Of a stretch of DNA of 64,000 bases, positions 26,628 through 49,753 are shown piece after piece. Where the stretch lies: contig NZ_JAOVAM010000006.1 in assembly GCF_029850875.1 (NCBI RefSeq), forward strand, positions 62,001 to 126,000, written 5' to 3'. The stretch comes from Rothia similimucilaginosa (GTDB taxonomy: Bacteria; Actinomycetota; Actinomycetes; Actinomycetales; Micrococcaceae). The notes beneath the pieces were generated by a model, which did not search any database, was not told where the DNA came from, and worked only from the letters and a program-made list of their open reading frames with translations. Within the stretch, counting starts at the first letter, position 1; every line of letters begins with the position of its first letter. Made by a program: the position numbers and the translations under genes.

Positions 26628-26695
26628 CCGGGTCGAACCCGATACATCGTGATGTAATTCATCACGTCATGTATTGTGGGTCGGCCCGGTTTTTC
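26628..26695 (+). terminator. Long terminator after eno
   Basis: A nested stem: CCGGGTCG-CCC with GGGTCGGCCCGG on the outside, ATACAT with ATGTAT, and a perfect CGTGATG/CATCACG tip around TAATT. The 3' arm runs into TTTTT. Confidence 0.85.
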
Positions 26696-26753
26696 CTTGT
26701 CAGCGCCATATAATCAGCCATATACGTTCACTCACGCATCACATAGGAAAATC

Positions 26754-27665
26754 ATGACTGTCTGCTATCTCATCCTCGCCCATAAGTACCCGGAGCAGTT
26801 TAAGAAAATTGCTCGACATATTCTGAATTCTGGTGGGGTATGCGTTGCCCACATTGATAAGAAGGCCAATCTTGACGACTTCTACGTCGAGGGTGTGTCT
26901 TACGTTCGTGAGCGTGAGAACGTGCGTTGGGCCGGTTACTCTGCGGTGAAGGCAACTCAAAAAATGCTTGCCCAGGCTTTAAAGGAGTATCCGGAGGCAA
27001 CTCATTACGCATCTATTACGGGGCAGTGCTATCCTGTGCGTCCTCTTCGCGAATACGCTGATTTTCTTGCCCGGCCCGAAAATCTGGAGCGCTCCTGGGT
27101 AAGCTTCTACGCTCTGGCTCCCGGTATGCGAAACTACAAGCTGGTTCAGTACCGCGAATACAAAGACTTTGAAGGCCTGCTGCCTGAAGGGATTATCCGC
27201 AGGGGCGTACGCAAAGTGTATTACAAGATTTCGAAGATGTTCCCCCGCAAGAATTTGCCCGTCCAGTTTTATCAGGGCTCGGCCTATTGGACGATTTCTC
27301 GTTCGGCTGCACTTCAGGTGATGGACTTTTTGAAAACTCCGAAGGGCCGAGAGGTTACCAAGATTTTCCGTTCTGCCCCTATGCCTGACGAGATGTGGAT
27401 GCAGAGTGTACTCCTCAATACGCCCGCTCGTGAGAGTGTTGAGGCATGGGCAACCGATGGTCAGCTGGCACCGGGCACAAAGCATTCGGAGAACCACGCA
27501 AATCACCATTACATCGACTGGAGCGGGATGGGAGCTCACCCTGAGGTGCTCACCGAGAAAGATCTCCCTGTCATCCTAGAATCAGGAAAGTGGTTTACGC
27601 GTAAGGTTGAGCCCCAGGCATCTGCCCAGCTCATTGATGCTCTGGATGCCATCCAGCGCGGATAA
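26754..27665 (+). CDS. Core-2/I-branching (beta-1,6-N-acetylglucosaminyltransferase) family glycosyltransferase
   Basis: From the ATG at 26754 (AGGAAA upstream) the protein has 303 residues. The family blocks are visible: CYLILAHKYPEQFKKIARHI at the start, VAHIDKKANLDDFY, RWAGYSAVKATQKML, HYASITGQCYPVRPL near residue 90, QFYQGSAYWTISRSAAL and MPDEMWMQSVLLN with the acidic catalytic residues. It probably adds a sugar branch to a surface glycan; donor and acceptor are unknown. A perfect TATAAT lies at 26709-26714. It sits between eno and the ftsB-like gene, which are often adjacent in relatives, and is visibly A+T-richer than both. Confidence 0.85.
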   Translation: MTVCYLILAHKYPEQFKKIARHILNSGGVCVAHIDKKANLDDFYVEGVSYVRERENVRWAGYSAVKATQKMLAQALKEYPEATHYASITGQCYPVRPLREYADFLARPENLERSWVSFYALAPGMRNYKLVQYREYKDFEGLLPEGIIRRGVRKVYYKISKMFPRKNLPVQFYQGSAYWTISRSAALQVMDFLKTPKGREVTKIFRSAPMPDEMWMQSVLLNTPARESVEAWATDGQLAPGTKHSENHANHHYIDWSGMGAHPEVLTEKDLPVILESGKWFTRKVEPQASAQLIDALDAIQRG

Positions 27666-44006: not shown

Positions 44007-44513
44007 ATGCCTACTCCTCCCTATATCCGTAAGCTGCGTGAGCAGATTGGACCGGATTACCTGTGGCTCTCCGGTGCGACGGCTGTGGTGTACCGTGAGC
44101 AGGATTCTAAGGTGCTGCTGGTGCGCCGTAGCGATAACGGGGCGTGGACCCCGATCACGGGTATTGTAGACCCGGGGGAGAGCCCCGCACTGACCTGCCT
44201 GCGTGAGGCGCAGGAGGAAGCGAACGTGCAGATTGAGGTGTTGGAGTTGGCGCAGGTGAAGGCTGACCCGCCGATGCAGTTCGGTAATGGTGACCGCTGC
44301 CAGTTCTTGGACCATACGTTCTTGTGCCGCTGGGTTTCTGGTGAGGCGAAGGTGAACGACGAGGAATCTTCGCAGGTGCGTTGGGTGGATGTGTCTGACC
44401 CGGCGGAGCGTGCGTTGCTTTCTGAGCGGATGCTGGACCGTATTGATGCGGCGCTGAACTATGACGGCCACTGCCGTTTTGGGTTGGAATCGGTGCCGCC
44501 GGAAGAACTCTAA
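44007..44513 (+). CDS. Nudix hydrolase
   Basis: A 168-residue pyrophosphohydrolase. The Nudix box reads GIVDPGESPALTCLREAQEEANV near residues 52-74: the catalytic REAQEE is intact but Asn replaces the usual Gly near its end. NGAWTPITGIVDPGE precedes it and FLDHTFLCRWVSGEAKVNDEES follows, as in NADH- or ADP-ribose-type members; the substrate is not clear. AAAGG precedes the ATG. A terminator that is duplicated on the far side of the island lies directly after it. Confidence 0.9.
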   Translation: MPTPPYIRKLREQIGPDYLWLSGATAVVYREQDSKVLLVRRSDNGAWTPITGIVDPGESPALTCLREAQEEANVQIEVLELAQVKADPPMQFGNGDRCQFLDHTFLCRWVSGEAKVNDEESSQVRWVDVSDPAERALLSERMLDRIDAALNYDGHCRFGLESVPPEEL

Positions 44514-44560: not shown

Positions 44561-44604
44561 ACAGAGGGAGGGGCGACCCGCCGTCATGGCGAGTCGCCCC
44601 TCCC
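44561..44604 (+). repeat. Left copy of the island-flanking terminator repeat
   Basis: This 44-nt stretch matches 48258-48301 with one mismatch, and the last 38 nt (44567-44604) are identical. It forms GGGAGGGGCGAC-CGCC, loop GTCAT, GGCG-GTCGCCCCTCCC, followed by AGCATTTTT, so it is also the terminator of the Nudix gene. Confidence 0.95.
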
Positions 44605-44612
44605 AGCATTTT
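44566..44612 (+). terminator. Terminator after the Nudix gene
   Basis: A 12-bp stem (44566-44577 with 44593-44604), extended by an inner CGCC/GGCG, then a TTTTT tract. Confidence 0.9.
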
Positions 44613-44777
44613 TACAACAGTTTGTTACATGTTATTGGGTGGTTCTTCCTGCTTTTCTGTGGGAGTGAGGGGCTGGAGGCCTAAAATTTGCCGTGGCTTT
44701 ATTTTGTTTTTGTCTTTTTTACTTTAAGTTGTGCCTGTGTGTCGAGTTATGAGTGGTACACATGAGATGCTTTATAT

Positions 44778-45323
44778 ATGACACAGGTTACATCGGGAGT
44801 GGTGACCCCATATCAGTCACCCGAGAAAATTCGTTCACGTGATGTTCAGATGACTGCAGTTGCTTTCCTTGAGACTCGAACAATTCTTGTCTCTGGAACT
44901 CTGGAAACCAGTGACCGGGCGGTCATGGTTACCTATGATTTGCCTTCAGAAGGTGAGTGGACCTTCATTAAGGTGGAGACAAACCTGTCTAATCAATCAT
45001 GGAGCAGCTGGATTATGAGCGTGGACGATGATGGTGAATTTGTGGAGGATGCTGCTCGCCCAGCTATCTCGCAACAGTTCTCACAGGTCGTCTATAGCGC
45101 TGATCATCGGAGGCTAGGATTCTTTGATGGAGAGGTTCGACCGGGAGAGGCAGTCCTGAAGCAGTTTACCGTTCGAGCTCCGTCGCGTCGGTTTTACATG
45201 AGCCACGGACGCAGGCATCGCCCTCAGGGAACTCCTGTTGATGAGATTTTCTCTGAAATTCTAGAGGGGTACACTCTGGATTCTTCTTACGAAATTTTTG
45301 TTCCAGTTGAAATTCGCTATTAG
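44778..45323 (+). CDS. Orphan 181-residue protein, first gene of the island
   Basis: A soluble protein with no signal peptide or membrane helix. It is rich in beta-prone and acidic stretches (VAFLETRTILVSGTLETSD, EGEWTFIKVETNLSNQSWSS) and ends in a basic loop (RRFYMSHGRRHRPQG) and EIFVPVEIRY. I recognise no family. The ATG has only a weak GAGATG upstream. Base use is intermediate between the host and the A+T-rich genes that follow. A perfect hairpin separates it from the flavoprotein gene, so it may be its own unit or the first gene of an attenuated operon. Confidence 0.7.
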   Translation: MTQVTSGVVTPYQSPEKIRSRDVQMTAVAFLETRTILVSGTLETSDRAVMVTYDLPSEGEWTFIKVETNLSNQSWSSWIMSVDDDGEFVEDAARPAISQQFSQVVYSADHRRLGFFDGEVRPGEAVLKQFTVRAPSRRFYMSHGRRHRPQGTPVDEIFSEILEGYTLDSSYEIFVPVEIRY

Positions 45324-45324
45324 T

Positions 45325-45359
45325 AAAATGCCTACCTATTTGTAATAGGTAGGCATTTT
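45325..45359 (+). terminator. Perfect 16-bp hairpin abutting the next Shine-Dalgarno
   Basis: AAAATGCCTACCTATT (45325-45340), loop TGT, AATAGGTAGGCATTTT (45344-45359), then A and GGAGGT (45361-45366), the ribosome site of the next gene. It can terminate the upstream gene or act as an attenuator. Confidence 0.8.
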
Positions 45360-45370
45360 AGGAGGTAAGT

Positions 45371-46627
45371 ATGGGTAACTATAAAAATTACTTTTTTGTG
45401 CCACCTGGATATTTGTTGGATAGTCCCAGGGGGAGGCAGGAAATTTTAAAAAATGTAGTTGATTTGCAGGAGATGCCCTCATTTCATGACTATATCGATT
45501 CTGAAGGTTATTTGGATGTGGTTATAGTCGGGGGAGGTTTGTCTGGAATCAATCTTGCCTCATCTATCTTTCATGTTGATGGATTAAAGTATGTAATTGT
45601 TGATCCACATAAAAGGTTGGGCGACAAATTTTTGTCCATGTGTAATTCAATTGGTCAAAATGTAATGAGGTCTCCATATGAACATCATCCAGGTTGCCAA
45701 TTTGTTCACGATTGTGAATTAGTGGATTTTGCTCGAATTAAATACAGTTTCCTCACTGTGACGGAAAGGGAACAAGTTAAAATGTCAATCATGGGGCATC
45801 GATCCATAGTTCCTATGGATGTTTTTGAAGGGTTCGTGCGTCATGTGATTGAATTGCATGAACTCGAAAAAAGGCACATTGAGGATGAAGTGAAAAATAT
45901 TTCCAAGATAGGTGGATATTATACTGTTTCGCTTAAATCTGGAATTATGCTTAAATCTCGCAATGTTGTTTTTTGCACTGGTCAAGAATCTATTGAAGTA
46001 CCAGATGGGTATAGTACCCCCTGGGACTTGAATACTCTCCAGGAGGCAAAGCCAGGAGATAAGTTTGCGGTATTTGGAGGTGGGCAAACAGCTGCTACTT
46101 TGACTTATGCGCTCTTGAAATTAGGTGCTAACGTTGATTTATATCATAGAGGCGAGTCTATTACTTTTCGTTGCGCAGATGTTCCTGCTGAGTTTTTCAG
46201 GCCTGAAGGGCGAGAAAAATACAGAAAAAGTTCATCTTTAGGATTTAAAAAATCTTCAGTTATGCATGAGTATTTAGATATATTTAATGCTTATAGGGCT
46301 AAGGGATTCCTAAATATTTATCCAATGGCTCACCTGAAAGACCGTTCTATCTATGTGGATGGAATTAGGGTTGATGGTGAAGGAATGGGTTATAAAAAAA
46401 TTATTCTCTGTTTTGGTTTGGTGCCGAAGAGTTTTCGTTGCCTTATTGATGAGAGTATAGATATCTGGGATGTGGATTATTGGTGTGCTATTCATGATGG
46501 ATTGTATGTATTGGGGGCAGGGGCTGAGGCCGCCTTGGGTCCTGCGGCTAAGAATATTGATGGGCATAGAGTTGGCGTGATTAGAATTTTGGATTCTATT
46601 ACAAGGAAGAGCGAAAAACTAAAATGA
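45371..46627 (+). CDS. FAD/NAD(P)-dependent oxidoreductase, possible flavin monooxygenase
   Basis: A 418-residue flavoprotein. After a 48-residue lead comes a classic FAD loop, VVIVGGGLSGINLASSIF (about residues 51-68), and near residue 235 a second, NAD(P)-type loop, FAVFGGGQTAATLTYALLKLG. The block NVMRSPYEHHPGCQF near residue 95 and LYVLGAGAEAALGPAAKNIDG near the end, which should contact FAD, are striking. The order of folds fits lysine/ornithine N-hydroxylases or related flavin monooxygenases, but I cannot name the substrate. The gene is markedly A+T-rich and uses A/T-ending codons, unlike its neighbours. A strong GGAGGT precedes the ATG. It overlaps the next gene by 4 bp (ATGA). Confidence 0.8.
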   Translation: MGNYKNYFFVPPGYLLDSPRGRQEILKNVVDLQEMPSFHDYIDSEGYLDVVIVGGGLSGINLASSIFHVDGLKYVIVDPHKRLGDKFLSMCNSIGQNVMRSPYEHHPGCQFVHDCELVDFARIKYSFLTVTEREQVKMSIMGHRSIVPMDVFEGFVRHVIELHELEKRHIEDEVKNISKIGGYYTVSLKSGIMLKSRNVVFCTGQESIEVPDGYSTPWDLNTLQEAKPGDKFAVFGGGQTAATLTYALLKLGANVDLYHRGESITFRCADVPAEFFRPEGREKYRKSSSLGFKKSSVMHEYLDIFNAYRAKGFLNIYPMAHLKDRSIYVDGIRVDGEGMGYKKIILCFGLVPKSFRCLIDESIDIWDVDYWCAIHDGLYVLGAGAEAALGPAAKNIDGHRVGVIRILDSITRKSEKLK

Positions 46628-47001
46628 AATATTTTGATTTAGTTAAGAGTTTGCCTGATGACTATCCAGGTATTTCTCAATGTGAAATTGTTATGATGTC
46701 TTTGGGAAATGAAGTTTTGTATGCTTCTCTTCAAGATTCATTAAACTCCTGCAGGGATACAATGTGTTTGGGGGAGCATATTTTAAGAGGCGAAATCCTA
46801 TCTCATAGGAATTGGCCTGTATGTAAGGAGGTGGAGGATACTGTCAATATTGTCTCTAGCAAAGTTCAGATTCCTAGGACAACATTTCATTATTCTGCCT
46901 ATAAATCTTTAAGGCATGCCATTTTTTGTGAACTAGGATCATCGTGTTCATCACAATTGTTAGCAGCTATTTTGATGCGTGCTGGAAGGAATAAAGCATG
47001 A
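46624..47001 (+). CDS. Orphan 125-residue protein between the flavoprotein and the exporter
   Basis: A small soluble protein, again A+T-rich, with six Cys (including NSCRDTMCLGEH and ELGSSCSS) and a C-terminal helical stretch (YKSLRHAIFCELG ... LLAAILMRAG). I recognise no family. It overlaps both neighbours by 4 bp (ATGA at 46624 and 46998), so translation is coupled, and the three proteins are probably made in fixed proportion for one task. It could be a partner subunit, a small transferase or a carrier; none of these is shown by sequence. Confidence 0.7.
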   Translation: MKYFDLVKSLPDDYPGISQCEIVMMSLGNEVLYASLQDSLNSCRDTMCLGEHILRGEILSHRNWPVCKEVEDTVNIVSSKVQIPRTTFHYSAYKSLRHAIFCELGSSCSSQLLAAILMRAGRNKA

Positions 47002-48215
47002 CAACACATAAAATACCGTGGAGAATCTACGTAGCCCTTATCGGCTCTCTGGTAGGTACAGGAATATATTCCTTCGCCCTACCCATCGCGATTCTCGCTA
47101 GTACAGGCGAAATTGGGTTAGCTGGCGTGATGGCAGTAGCCATGCAAATCCCCAATATCGCCTTGGCATATCCACTAGCAACCCTATCTGATAGTCTGCC
47201 TCGAAAACCTATGATCGTGATTGCCGGGGCAGTAAACATCCTCAGCATCCTTACCTTGGCGTTGATGATTGAGCAGCATATGCTGTCATGGTTCACCATC
47301 GCCGCACTAGGATTTGTGAGCGGTGTCTTCTCCGAACTGGCTGCTGCCTCAGAAGCGGGATATATTCCGCAGCTTCTCGGACGAGAAAACCTTCTTTCGT
47401 ACAACGCACGTCGTGAAATTTGCGAGGGAATATCCGCAATCATTGCGCCCCCTACAGCAGGATTTATTGTTCTTGTCGCGGGTGCAACGGTCGGTCTTAT
47501 CGTCCCGGTGCTCCTTTTCGGAGCGGCAACTATTTCATACGCAACGTTGCCATCTGTAGAGATGGAAACTAAAACTGAGCAACGCGAAACCGCACAACAT
47601 GGGTTTATCCACCGGATGTTTGACGGTATCCAATACATGTTCTCCGGTGCCCCGCAGAGACTTATCCTTGTCTACACGTTCTTCTTGGCGGCAGCTACGG
47701 CATCGTATTCACTCATCATTATTTACCGCCTGTACGAGGAACTCACCTTTGAAGCCTCAGTGGTAGGCATGATTATGGCCTGCAGCGGTATCGGTGGTAT
47801 CGTCGCGGCGCTCATCATCGATCGTTTCCTCTCTTTCGAGAACACACGAGGAATGCTGCTGGTCGCCAACGTCGTATCCCTGCTCGGAATACCGCTCGTC
47901 ACCATCAGCAATAACCCCGTAGTGCTCGGAGCCTTGCTCTTCATCCTGGACGTAGGATGGGCATCAGCTTTCATCTTCTCCAACAATCTGCGTGACTGCA
48001 TTACACCGAATGAGCTACTGGGGCGTGCCAGCTCTCTTGACGGTGCCGTGTTTGGGCTAGGAACGCTGTACTCCATGGGTGCGGTAGCACTGATGCTTGA
48101 CCATCTAGGCTCCTTCAACGCTGCACTCGTCGTCAGTATCCCGGCTGTACTCTGCCTCATCTACACGCTGGTCCACTATAAACAGTTCAAAGTGTTCAAC
48201 ATCGTTGAACAATAG
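46998..48215 (+). CDS. Major facilitator superfamily exporter
   Basis: A 405-residue transporter with twelve hydrophobic helices and no signal peptide. The loop between helices 2 and 3 reads YPLATLSDSLPRKPMIVIAGA, the MFS motif A form, and the family is the MFS_3/EntS-like group of drug and siderophore exporters. It overlaps the upstream orphan by 4 bp. Its base use is closer to the host than the two genes before it, which suggests a composite origin. The likely role is to export the product of the island, or to give resistance to it. Confidence 0.88.
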   Translation: MTTHKIPWRIYVALIGSLVGTGIYSFALPIAILASTGEIGLAGVMAVAMQIPNIALAYPLATLSDSLPRKPMIVIAGAVNILSILTLALMIEQHMLSWFTIAALGFVSGVFSELAAASEAGYIPQLLGRENLLSYNARREICEGISAIIAPPTAGFIVLVAGATVGLIVPVLLFGAATISYATLPSVEMETKTEQRETAQHGFIHRMFDGIQYMFSGAPQRLILVYTFFLAAATASYSLIIIYRLYEELTFEASVVGMIMACSGIGGIVAALIIDRFLSFENTRGMLLVANVVSLLGIPLVTISNNPVVLGALLFILDVGWASAFIFSNNLRDCITPNELLGRASSLDGAVFGLGTLYSMGAVALMLDHLGSFNAALVVSIPAVLCLIYTLVHYKQFKVFNIVEQ

Positions 48216-48257
48216 TGAGAACCCGCTACCCACTTAATGACGGGGCGGAGAACATAC

Positions 48258-48301
48258 ACAGAAGGAGGGGCGACCCGCCGTCATGGCGAGTCGCCCCTCC
48301 C
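48258..48301 (+). repeat. Right copy of the island-flanking terminator repeat
   Basis: Direct repeat of 44561-44604 with one mismatch (A for G); 48264-48301 is identical to 44567-44604. It forms the same hairpin, here after the MFS gene, between it and the convergent fumC. Confidence 0.95.
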
Positions 48302-48346: not shown

Positions 48347-49753
48347 TTAGAAGTTGCCCAGCATCTTGGTGACGTCCAGAGCCGCATCCAGCTGCTCCTC
48401 AGTCACTTCGCCGCGCTCCACATAACCCAGAGCCACAACTGCCTCACGGACAGTCACCTTGTGAGCCACCGAGTACTTAGCAATCTTCGCAGCAGCCTCG
48501 TAACCAATCAGCTTGTTCAGCGGGGTCACGGTCGACGGCGAAGCCTCAGCCAGGAAGCGGCAACGCTCAACGTTAGCGGTCAGACCGTCAATCATCTTCT
48601 CAGCCGAAACGCGAGAAACATTAGCGAGCAGGCGGATCGACTGCAGCAGGTTAGCAGCCATCACCGGGATACCCACGTTCAGCTCAAACGCGCCGTTAGT
48701 GGAAGACAGAGCAATGGTTGCGTCGTTACCGATAACCTGAGCGGCAACCATGATGGTAGCCTCACAAATCACGGGATTGACCTTACCGGGCATAATCGAG
48801 GAGCCGGGCTGCAAATCGGGGATATGTAGCTCGCCCAGACCGGTGTTCGGGCCCGAACCCATCCAGCGGATGTCGTTGCTGATCTTCATCAGGCCGTACG
48901 CCAGGGTGCGCAGCTGACCGGAAACCTCAATCAGACCGTCACGGTTAGCCTGAGCCTCGAAGTGGTTACGAGCCTCGGTCAGGGGCAGGCCGGTCTCCTC
49001 AGCGAGTAGCTCAATCACGCGAGCGGAGAAGCCGTCCGGGGTATTAATGCCGGTACCCACAGCGGTACCGCCGAGGGGAACCTCAGCTACGCGGGGCAGG
49101 GAAGCGTTCACACGCTCAATGCCGTAACGTACGGTTGCGGCGTAACCGGAGAACTCCTGGCCCAGAGTGATGGGGGTTGCGTCCATCAGGTGGGTACGAC
49201 CGGACTTCACAACGTCCCTGAACTCTGCGGACTTGCGCTCCAGGGACTCAGCGAGCACCTCGAGAGCAGGAATCAGGTCCTTTACCAGAGCCTCGGTCAC
49301 AGCAACGTGCACGGAGGTGGGGAAGACGTCGTTAGAGGACTGGGATGCGTTCACGTGGTCGTTGGGGTGAACCTCAATGCCCTTGGACTCCAGGGAACGG
49401 GTTGCCAGGGTTGCCAGGACCTCGTTCGCGTTCATATTCGAGGAGGTACCGGAACCGGTCTGGAAGACGTCAATGGGGAAGTGGGCGTCGTAGTCACCGG
49501 TTGCTACCAGATCCGCTGCGTCGCGGATAGCCTGGGCGCGCTCAGCGTCGAGCACCTTGAGTTCCTCATTGGCGGTCGCGGCTGCCTTCTTCACGAGGGC
49601 AAGCGCACGAATATGGGCGGATTCGAGGGTCTGACCCGAAATCGGGAAGTTCTCGACTGCGCGCTGGGTCTGTGCACGGTAAAGTGCATCAGCCGGAACG
49701 CGAACTTCGCCCATGGTGTCATGTTCAATGCGGTATTCAATGTTTTCAGCCAT
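48347..49753 (-). CDS. fumC: Fumarate hydratase, class II
   Basis: Converts fumarate to malate, the step after succinate dehydrogenase. From the ATG at 49753 it has 468 residues. Diagnostic blocks: [13 protein letters not shown] near residue 98, [38 protein letters not shown] and the signature [15 protein letters not shown] near residue 320. On the minus strand TATCCT lies 6 nt before this ATG (leaderless, although AGAGG in the gap could also act as a Shine-Dalgarno). The in-frame ATG at 49774 lies upstream of the predicted transcription start. Confidence 0.97.

Follow-up and report, generated by a model that had tools for sequence, protein, structure and literature searches.

Minimal mobile elements, reportedly described in Neisseria by Saunders and Snyder in 2002 and by Snyder et al. 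in 2007, contain no mobility gene. Two papers, in their available parts, describe them as whole-gene cassettes that differ from strain to strain within one pair of conserved genes and enter by homologous recombination in these flanks (PMC3082526, PMC3898611). The present analysis concerns a four-gene cassette between a Nudix hydrolase gene and the fumarate hydratase gene fumC in Rothia similimucilaginosa (assembly GCF_029850875.1, contig NZ_JAOVAM010000006.1, positions 62,001 to 126,000 of the forward strand; this 64,000-nucleotide stretch is called the window). Like minimal mobile elements, Rothia cassettes vary between the same conserved genes, are AT-rich and lack a recognised mobility gene, and their host genomes encode a ComEC-family protein. 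Unlike them, the Rothia cassette lies between two copies of the recipient's terminator hairpin (T) and has single-copy empty sites; terminator duplication is not part of the definition in the accessible text of those sources. The cassette is interpreted here as an accessory unit without a recognised mobility gene, situated at a terminator, and as one of a recurrent terminator-insert-terminator (T-X-T) class in a Rothia species group. Taken together with the proposed entry mechanism, this explanation is judged evenly poised between right and wrong. Members of the class are accessory units of 0.8-3.7 kb, each framed by duplicate copies of a local terminator that belongs to the recipient.

Terminator hairpins have also been tied to DNA exchange in Neisseria, whose uptake-sequence terminators are, according to the accessible part of one paper, inverted copies of a single 12-bp sequence present nearly 2000 times per genome (PMC3898611). 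Unlike these, the two Rothia terminators that were counted genome-wide are private to their loci. Integron gene cassettes bring their own attC and are handled by the integron integrase. T-X-T units resemble them in their small size and in the hairpin site that follows each unit; however, both Rothia hairpins are the host's local terminator and the inserts scanned lacked an integrase domain. Integrative elements at gene 3' ends generate attL/attR duplications. Rothia inserts share with them a duplicated target of tens of bases, most similarly at the glnA end of two relatives (G021 and G030, see below), but have no recognised integrase, are very small and occupy a new target sequence each time. 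A literature search on terminator-bracketed insertion and Rothia islands, judged by titles and with few subscription papers covered, found nothing on point.

The Nudix-fumC cassette and its terminator

The cassette and its flanks comprise the following features of the window (ORF, open reading frame; MFS, major facilitator superfamily):

44007..44513, + strand: Nudix hydrolase, flanking core gene, present in 35/35 genomes of the genus set
44561..44604, strand not given: left copy of T, 3' of the Nudix gene, then AGCATTTTT
44778..45323, + strand: DUF6423 protein, 181 aa (Pfam PF19987, E 9e-37)
45324..45360, + strand: perfect 17-bp inverted repeat, candidate attenuator or operator, directly 3' of the DUF6423 stop codon and 5' of the oxidoreductase gene
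45371..46627, + strand: FAD/NAD(P)-binding oxidoreductase (flavin monooxygenase-like), 418 aa (Pfam Pyr_redox_2 8e-9, Pyr_redox_3 4e-8)
46624..47001, + strand: small protein, 125 aa, in a position that matches DUF6187 or small ORFs in related modules
46998..48215, + strand: MFS exporter, 405 aa (Pfam MFS_1 1e-30)
48258..48301, strand not given: right copy of T, preceding fumC, 43/44 identical to the left copy
48347..49753, - strand: fumarate hydratase fumC, flanking core gene (name from an earlier note, with no family search behind it; ATG at 49753 chosen, the mechanically called ORF reaching 49774)

The earlier note, made from the letters of this DNA, had claimed that a 44-nt terminator after the Nudix gene recurs with one mismatch approximately 3.7 kb further on, before fumC, that two of the four genes in between are strikingly A+T-rich, and that no transposase or integrase is present. 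All three claims were borne out. A repeat scan of the window returned the two copies as a 44-nt direct repeat with one mismatch and a start-to-start distance of 3697, the strongest of three direct-repeat families of at least 28 nt (the other two were 76-83% alike). Direct repeats are thus found at both cassette ends, as in an integrative element or genomic island with attL/attR. Both copies folded into strong hairpins with stems of 16-20 pairs (-37.8 to -49.3 kcal/mol depending on the strand, z -7 to -10). The right copy lacks a T-run on the + strand, and a terminator scan placed a 20-pair terminator-like site on the - strand, in the direction of fumC. The four ORFs between the copies are co-directional, with GC contents of, in order, 0.49, 0.39, 0.37 and 0.51, versus 0.59 in the flanks.

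Pfam and NCBIfam scans of the four cassette proteins detected no transposase or integrase domain, and the only inverted repeats at the insert ends are the T hairpins themselves, so that the cassette has neither a recognised integrase of its own nor the make-up of an insertion sequence (IS) or composite transposon. An IS end known from G021 and G030 had no site in the window at up to 1 mismatch, and entry at Nudix-fumC driven by an IS or a miniature inverted-repeat transposable element (MITE) was rejected for that reason. A diverged remnant of the Nudix 3' flank ahead of the right copy was also considered and rejected, the alignment not being significant (best p 0.054).

For comparison, a genus set of 35 genomes was used, with one genome per species, so that the "strains" compared are related species; G000 denotes the genome under study and other G numbers denote related Rothia genomes unless said otherwise. 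With up to 3 mismatches allowed, the 31-nt core of T occurred at 2 sites in the 2.05-Mb assembly, and in 2/35 genus genomes (G000 and G014, 2 copies each). The genome-wide count proposed in the earlier note therefore gave two copies only, and T was rejected as a dispersed terminator repeat. A single copy in G015 was read directly in the sequence, outside the ungapped core search, which missed it because it is one base shorter. The viral contigs searched contained neither the T hairpin nor a DUF6423 relative.

Nudix and fumC were found on one stretch in 32 of the 35 genomes; G033, G024 and G004 were left out because fumC was not found on their stretches. The interval ranged from 145 bp to 8.8 kb. 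G015 has an empty site, in which the Nudix flank leads through one T hairpin into the fumC flank. G014 retains both T copies around a decayed cassette from which 2.0 kb, from early DUF6423 to late in the 125-aa ORF, is gone. Its MFS protein is 99% identical to that of G000 with a dN/dS of 0.037, and the exporter is conserved under purifying selection between these two genomes. The G013 interval holds a thiamine-enzyme ORF without a T-like hairpin. Over the 32 intervals, this ORF cluster, presumably poxB-like, occurred in 16, a presumably thiolase-like ORF in 9 and a presumably MarR-like ORF in 8, to judge from the sequence. Besides the empty site, the DUF6423 cassette and its decayed form, the intervals hold poxB-like genes, MarR-like together with thiolase-like genes, and other contents, a variety that matches the content of minimal mobile elements. 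The largest interval, in G021 (L054, 998-9765, turned orientation), contains genes that we take, again from the sequence, to be a homogentisate pathway.

Both observations that the earlier note had named as support, an empty site with one terminator copy and different contents at the same place, were therefore made, the latter commonly in the genus; close relatives differ in carriage and do not all have the four genes. A duplicated flanking repeat above background was present in only 2/32 intervals (G000 and G014). Generic hotspot duplication at Nudix-fumC was rejected because the remaining 30/32 lack such a repeat.

Recurrence of terminator-bracketed inserts

In a first comparison over 64 kb, a second T-X-T-type indel was detected. 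In G014, a glycosyltransferase gene lies between near-identical terminators; G015 has a single terminator copy at this locus and G013 a similar single hairpin. The homologue in G000 is the second accessory gene of the class in the window:

26676..27665, + strand: Core-2/I-Branching glycosyltransferase, matching PF02485

Indels of at least 300 bp between G014 and G015 were compared over approximately 0.5 Mb. A first run gave 25 indels, of which 21 had flanks overlapping by 0-8 nt and 4 by 36-50 nt, and a longer run gave 27, in which the same four had a duplicated flank of at least 20 nt. All four duplications of 36-50 nt sit on terminator hairpins.

Self-comparison for hairpin direct repeats of 28-200 nt with at least 88% identity covered 187 kb of G000, 527 kb of G014, 525 kb of G015 and 175 kb of G013 (1.41 Mb). 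Eleven near-identical hairpin pairs were found within 12 kb (1, 6, 4 and 0, respectively) and none beyond this distance. Their spacings were 0.8-3.7 kb, while random placement would bring only 4.5-13% of pairs that close. Since two loci were common to two genomes, the 11 pairs represent 9 distinct loci. Non-hairpin direct repeats of 28-200 nt were also mostly near (2, 15, 22 and 3 near and 5, 9, 14 and 0 far, in the same order of genomes), which indicates that nearness is not special to hairpins; what is special to them is the link with presence or absence of an insert. In 10/11 pairs, those with a testable insert ORF, no similarity was found between insert ORFs and neighbouring mechanically called ORFs, and tandem duplication of a gene together with its terminator was rejected on this ground.

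Seven loci were polymorphic among close genomes, with T-X-T in some and a single T in others. They are listed by neighbour and insert, the neighbour names being presumed from the sequence (PLP, pyridoxal phosphate; ABC, ATP-binding cassette):

Locus 1: Nudix/fumC; DUF6423 cassette
Locus 2: PLP-enzyme neighbour; AbiD protein (Abi_2 3e-24, PADLOC AbiD 3e-22)
Locus 3: MerR neighbour; two-gene unit of a membrane protein matching the effector PycTM (PADLOC 6e-19) and a partner ORF without a match
Locus 4: enolase neighbour; glycosyltransferase
Locus 5: superoxide-dismutase/ABC neighbour pair; AlbA_2 protein
Locus 6: neighbour not given; NAD(P)-binding protein
Locus 7: neighbour not given; lipoprotein-like ORF (G015 versus G000, from the indel comparison and additional to the 9 loci above)

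When the borders were laid out letter by letter at six loci, the left flank of the empty allele stayed with the left copy and its right flank with the right copy, although the latter flank had diverged at three of the loci (AbiD, glycosyltransferase, AlbA_2). At two loci, T-X-T occurred in both G014 and G015, around an AbiEii-like gene (weak, 5e-4) and around lipoprotein-like ORFs without a Pfam match; a further T-X-T locus, with a ParE/Phd pair, was only partly variable. No transposase or integrase domain was detected by Pfam in the insert proteins scanned, some small mechanically called ORFs lying outside the scan. The inserts appeared to be rich in genes of the phage-defence type, namely AbiD, PycTM with its unmatched partner, AlbA_2, the weak AbiEii match and ParE/Phd (L157 217-1266; G014:C1 627208-629126).

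The PycTM locus has one T in G000, G015 and the outgroup G013, and two T copies plus the insert in G014 only. Single T in three genomes including the outgroup, and a double copy in one, makes gain with duplication the parsimonious reading of this locus. Its hairpin is single-copy in G000, G015 and G013 and was not found in the other 31 genomes (up to 3 mismatches). At both loci counted genome-wide (Nudix-fumC and PycTM), T is thus private to its locus.

The DUF6423 module in other genomes

The DUF6423 protein belongs to PF19987, which it matched with 126.7 bits against a gathering score of 29.7. The MFS exporter matched the NCBIfam models EntS and 2A0121 below their cutoffs, and Pfam and NCBIfam scans of the 125-aa protein gave no match. 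The oxidoreductase showed only weak matches to solved structures (best E 0.03), and AlphaFold confidence (predicted local distance difference test) was 47 for DUF6423 and 33 for the oxidoreductase, too low for a fold search. Since a flavin oxidoreductase adjoins an exporter with weak EntS-like similarity, the four genes may serve to make and export some oxidised small molecule. The inverted repeat at 45324-45360 has AT-rich ends and may attenuate or regulate the genes downstream. No paper naming DUF6423, DUF6187 or PF19987 was found in the literature searched.

DUF6423 was present in 1/396 sampled genomes of the phylum (G000) and in 7/343 Streptomyces genomes. Oxidoreductase homologues at E up to 1e-20 occurred in 2/395 family genomes (G000 and G030); among the 35 genus genomes only G000 gave a full-length match, that of G030 being split (46%/38%). 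In a wider scan of genome contigs, only the contig of G030 matched. Ten DUF6423 loci were read (G000, G030, a Salimicrobium plasmid and 7 Streptomyces loci, 2 of them plasmid records). The oxidoreductase gene was in the same gene group as DUF6423 in 10/10 and an MFS gene in 5/10. Of the 7 Streptomyces loci, 6 have an ORF with similarity to DUF6187, and the Rothia 125-aa ORF corresponds to DUF6187 by position only. With a gene set conserved across two phyla, the module is a separate lead. In the plasmid of Streptomyces sp. NBC_01237 (L073 12000-16500), apparent L33, L31 and CobW paralogues lie 3' of the module. Such a paralogue set is often under zinc control, and these neighbours hint at a possible link between the module and metal supply.

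Between G000 and G030, DUF6423 is 66% identical, the small protein and MFS protein 28-30%, and the oxidoreductase 35-46% in two pieces; these unequal identities indicate that parts of the module have unequal histories. DUF6423 seems either to have been exchanged separately or to be far more constrained than the other three proteins (L056 12415-15836 versus window 44778-48215). The G030 module (L056 12415-16540), whose oxidoreductase frame is split by a frame change, is located at the glnE-glnA junction, flanked by an entire glnE gene and by the decayed 3' end of a second one. On its left, 31 nt of the glnA 3' end are repeated (87%), and there is also a 161-bp MITE-like element with perfect 17-bp inverted ends (16017-16177 of L056). 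At the glnA end of eight examined relatives, DUF6423 was found in 0/8, and 7/8 had nothing before the next gene. In the remaining one, G021, 75-nt glnA 3'-end repeats (95%) enclose an MFS-like gene, a gene for a YcaO cyclodehydratase and a DDE transposase at this end:

L144 4266-4340 and 9001-9075: 75-nt glnA 3'-end direct repeats of G021, around a cassette of a second type at this end

Origin of the second terminator copy

Under the favoured explanation, foreign DNA, for which natural transformation is a plausible source, would have joined at the terminator of a core gene. The hairpin would have stalled or re-primed copying, so that one copy of T came to stand ahead of the insert and another behind it. 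The repeats of approximately 44 nt would then allow loss, or strain-to-strain exchange, by homologous recombination with the neighbours unharmed, and the two copies would insulate the insert. Re-copying of the hairpin during insertion would account for the coincidence of insert borders with the hairpin, and later loss or exchange through the repeats for the presence/absence polymorphism. T is the host's own and different at every locus, which makes one sequence-specific enzyme unlikely; a terminator brought in from elsewhere would not match. DNA uptake by these Rothia genomes is plausible. The ComEC family (PF03772) was detected in 4/4 genomes, and the accessible part of a paper on Micrococcus luteus places Rothia among genera with a similar gene cluster, a legend giving comEA and comEC in all representatives (PMC8467076).

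A number of observations weigh against this explanation. The event that would make the second T copy is an inferred step. PF03772 also occurred in 10/14 control genomes and is therefore weak evidence for competence. In G000, the hairpins that bracket the glycosyltransferase gene are unlike each other. Duplicated flanks also occur away from terminators, as 15-20 nt of coding sequence (G000 versus G014 and G015), as repeats of 25 nt and 86 nt (G014-G013) and, under another chaining of G014-G013, as 139 nt at a gene start. In a stricter scan, G015 gave one identical hairpin pair at a distance of 141 kb; both hairpins are part of a 1473-bp identical, IS-like repeat beside two IS-like ORFs, which exceeds the 200-nt limit of the self-comparison. 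No near hairpin pair was found in the 175 kb of G013, and G005, from another Rothia clade, had 0 near pairs and 1 far pair in 400 kb, so that the T-X-T process may not extend to the whole genus. In the G030 and G021 insertions, the duplicated sequences are 3' ends of genes and not bare terminators, and IS- or MITE-like sequences lie in or beside both; these insertions resemble either the T-X-T process or classical 3'-end integration.

The best surviving alternative, regarded as unlikely, is that the T-X-T arrangement is older and that empty sites arose when recombination or slippage between the T copies deleted the insert. The repeats account for exit, and indels would appear at these sites because the repeats make them deletable; flanking repeats of 36-50 nt are known deletion substrates, and in G014 the cassette is decaying in place. 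Over the window, identity was 92.5% for G000-G014, 93.0% for G000-G015 and 94.9% for G014-G015, with G013 at 85.5-87.0% to these three. G000 is thus slightly more distant from G014 and G015 than these are from one another, and G015 could have lost the cassette. The three topologies were backed by 437, 366 and 350 informative sites, a near-star pattern that varies along the window, with a slight lean towards G014 and G015 as sisters; that order would make G015 a loss and also counts against the favoured explanation. With a species order so close to a star, a G015 that never had the cassette cannot be separated from one that lost it. A history of deletion is silent, however, on how near-identical terminators came to flank foreign genes, and at the PycTM locus, empty in three genomes including the outgroup, it would need several losses.

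The same evidence supports, within limits, the interpretation in the earlier note, which made two further claims. That a single ancestral terminator between Nudix and fumC was duplicated, or used for recombination, at entry agrees with the empty G015 site and its one T; the deeper ancestral content may instead have been a poxB-like ORF, as found in 16/32 intervals, and gain and loss in G015 are inseparable. Recombination between short direct repeats, which the note took as the route, explains exit and exchange and leaves the origin of the second T copy unexplained.

Site-specific integration, by a recombinase acting in trans or since lost, with the hairpin as attachment site and its copies as attL/attR, is quite improbable. 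The palindromic border sites of 36-50 nt would suit it, integrases often target gene 3' ends, and the duplicated glnA 3' ends of G021 and G030 have the appearance of such integration. Terminators of different loci share no sequence by eye, however, unlike the att sites of one enzyme, and the insert proteins scanned lack a recombinase domain, the genomes themselves not having been searched for recombinases.

It is very doubtful that cassettes were swapped by homologous recombination in Nudix and fumC, as in minimal mobile elements, with the second T homogenised later by gene conversion. Whole-gene contents do vary at this site across the genus and the ComEC family is present. Conversion between unlike terminators, however, has no starting homology, the duplicated part ends near the borders of the hairpin at the six loci compared letter by letter, and 30/32 Nudix-fumC intervals lack a duplicated flank despite their variable content. 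Chance or a dispersed terminator repeat is hardly credible, given two genomic copies with none elsewhere at up to 3 mismatches and 11 near versus 0 far pairs (28-200 nt).

A wider form of the favoured explanation, entry by duplication of the recipient's terminator, is put forward tentatively and at less than an even chance. Intrinsic terminator hairpins in what we take to be a Rothia mucilaginosa-like group would be general insertion points, at which a structure-guided, sequence-independent event, for example re-copying of a stalled fork, would place genes after a host terminator and duplicate that terminator. The units, often anti-phage, would arrive insulated and would remain removable by recombination between the two copies. 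If this is true, the group would acquire genes by a route that needs no integrase and leaves a sequence signature of its own. Many bacterial accessory genes have no visible vehicle, and how they enter is an old open question. A private terminator duplication would serve as a footprint to look for in any set of related genomes, placing insert borders to within a few bases, and bracketing by two terminators would be a simple reason why inserts neither read into their neighbours nor get stuck.

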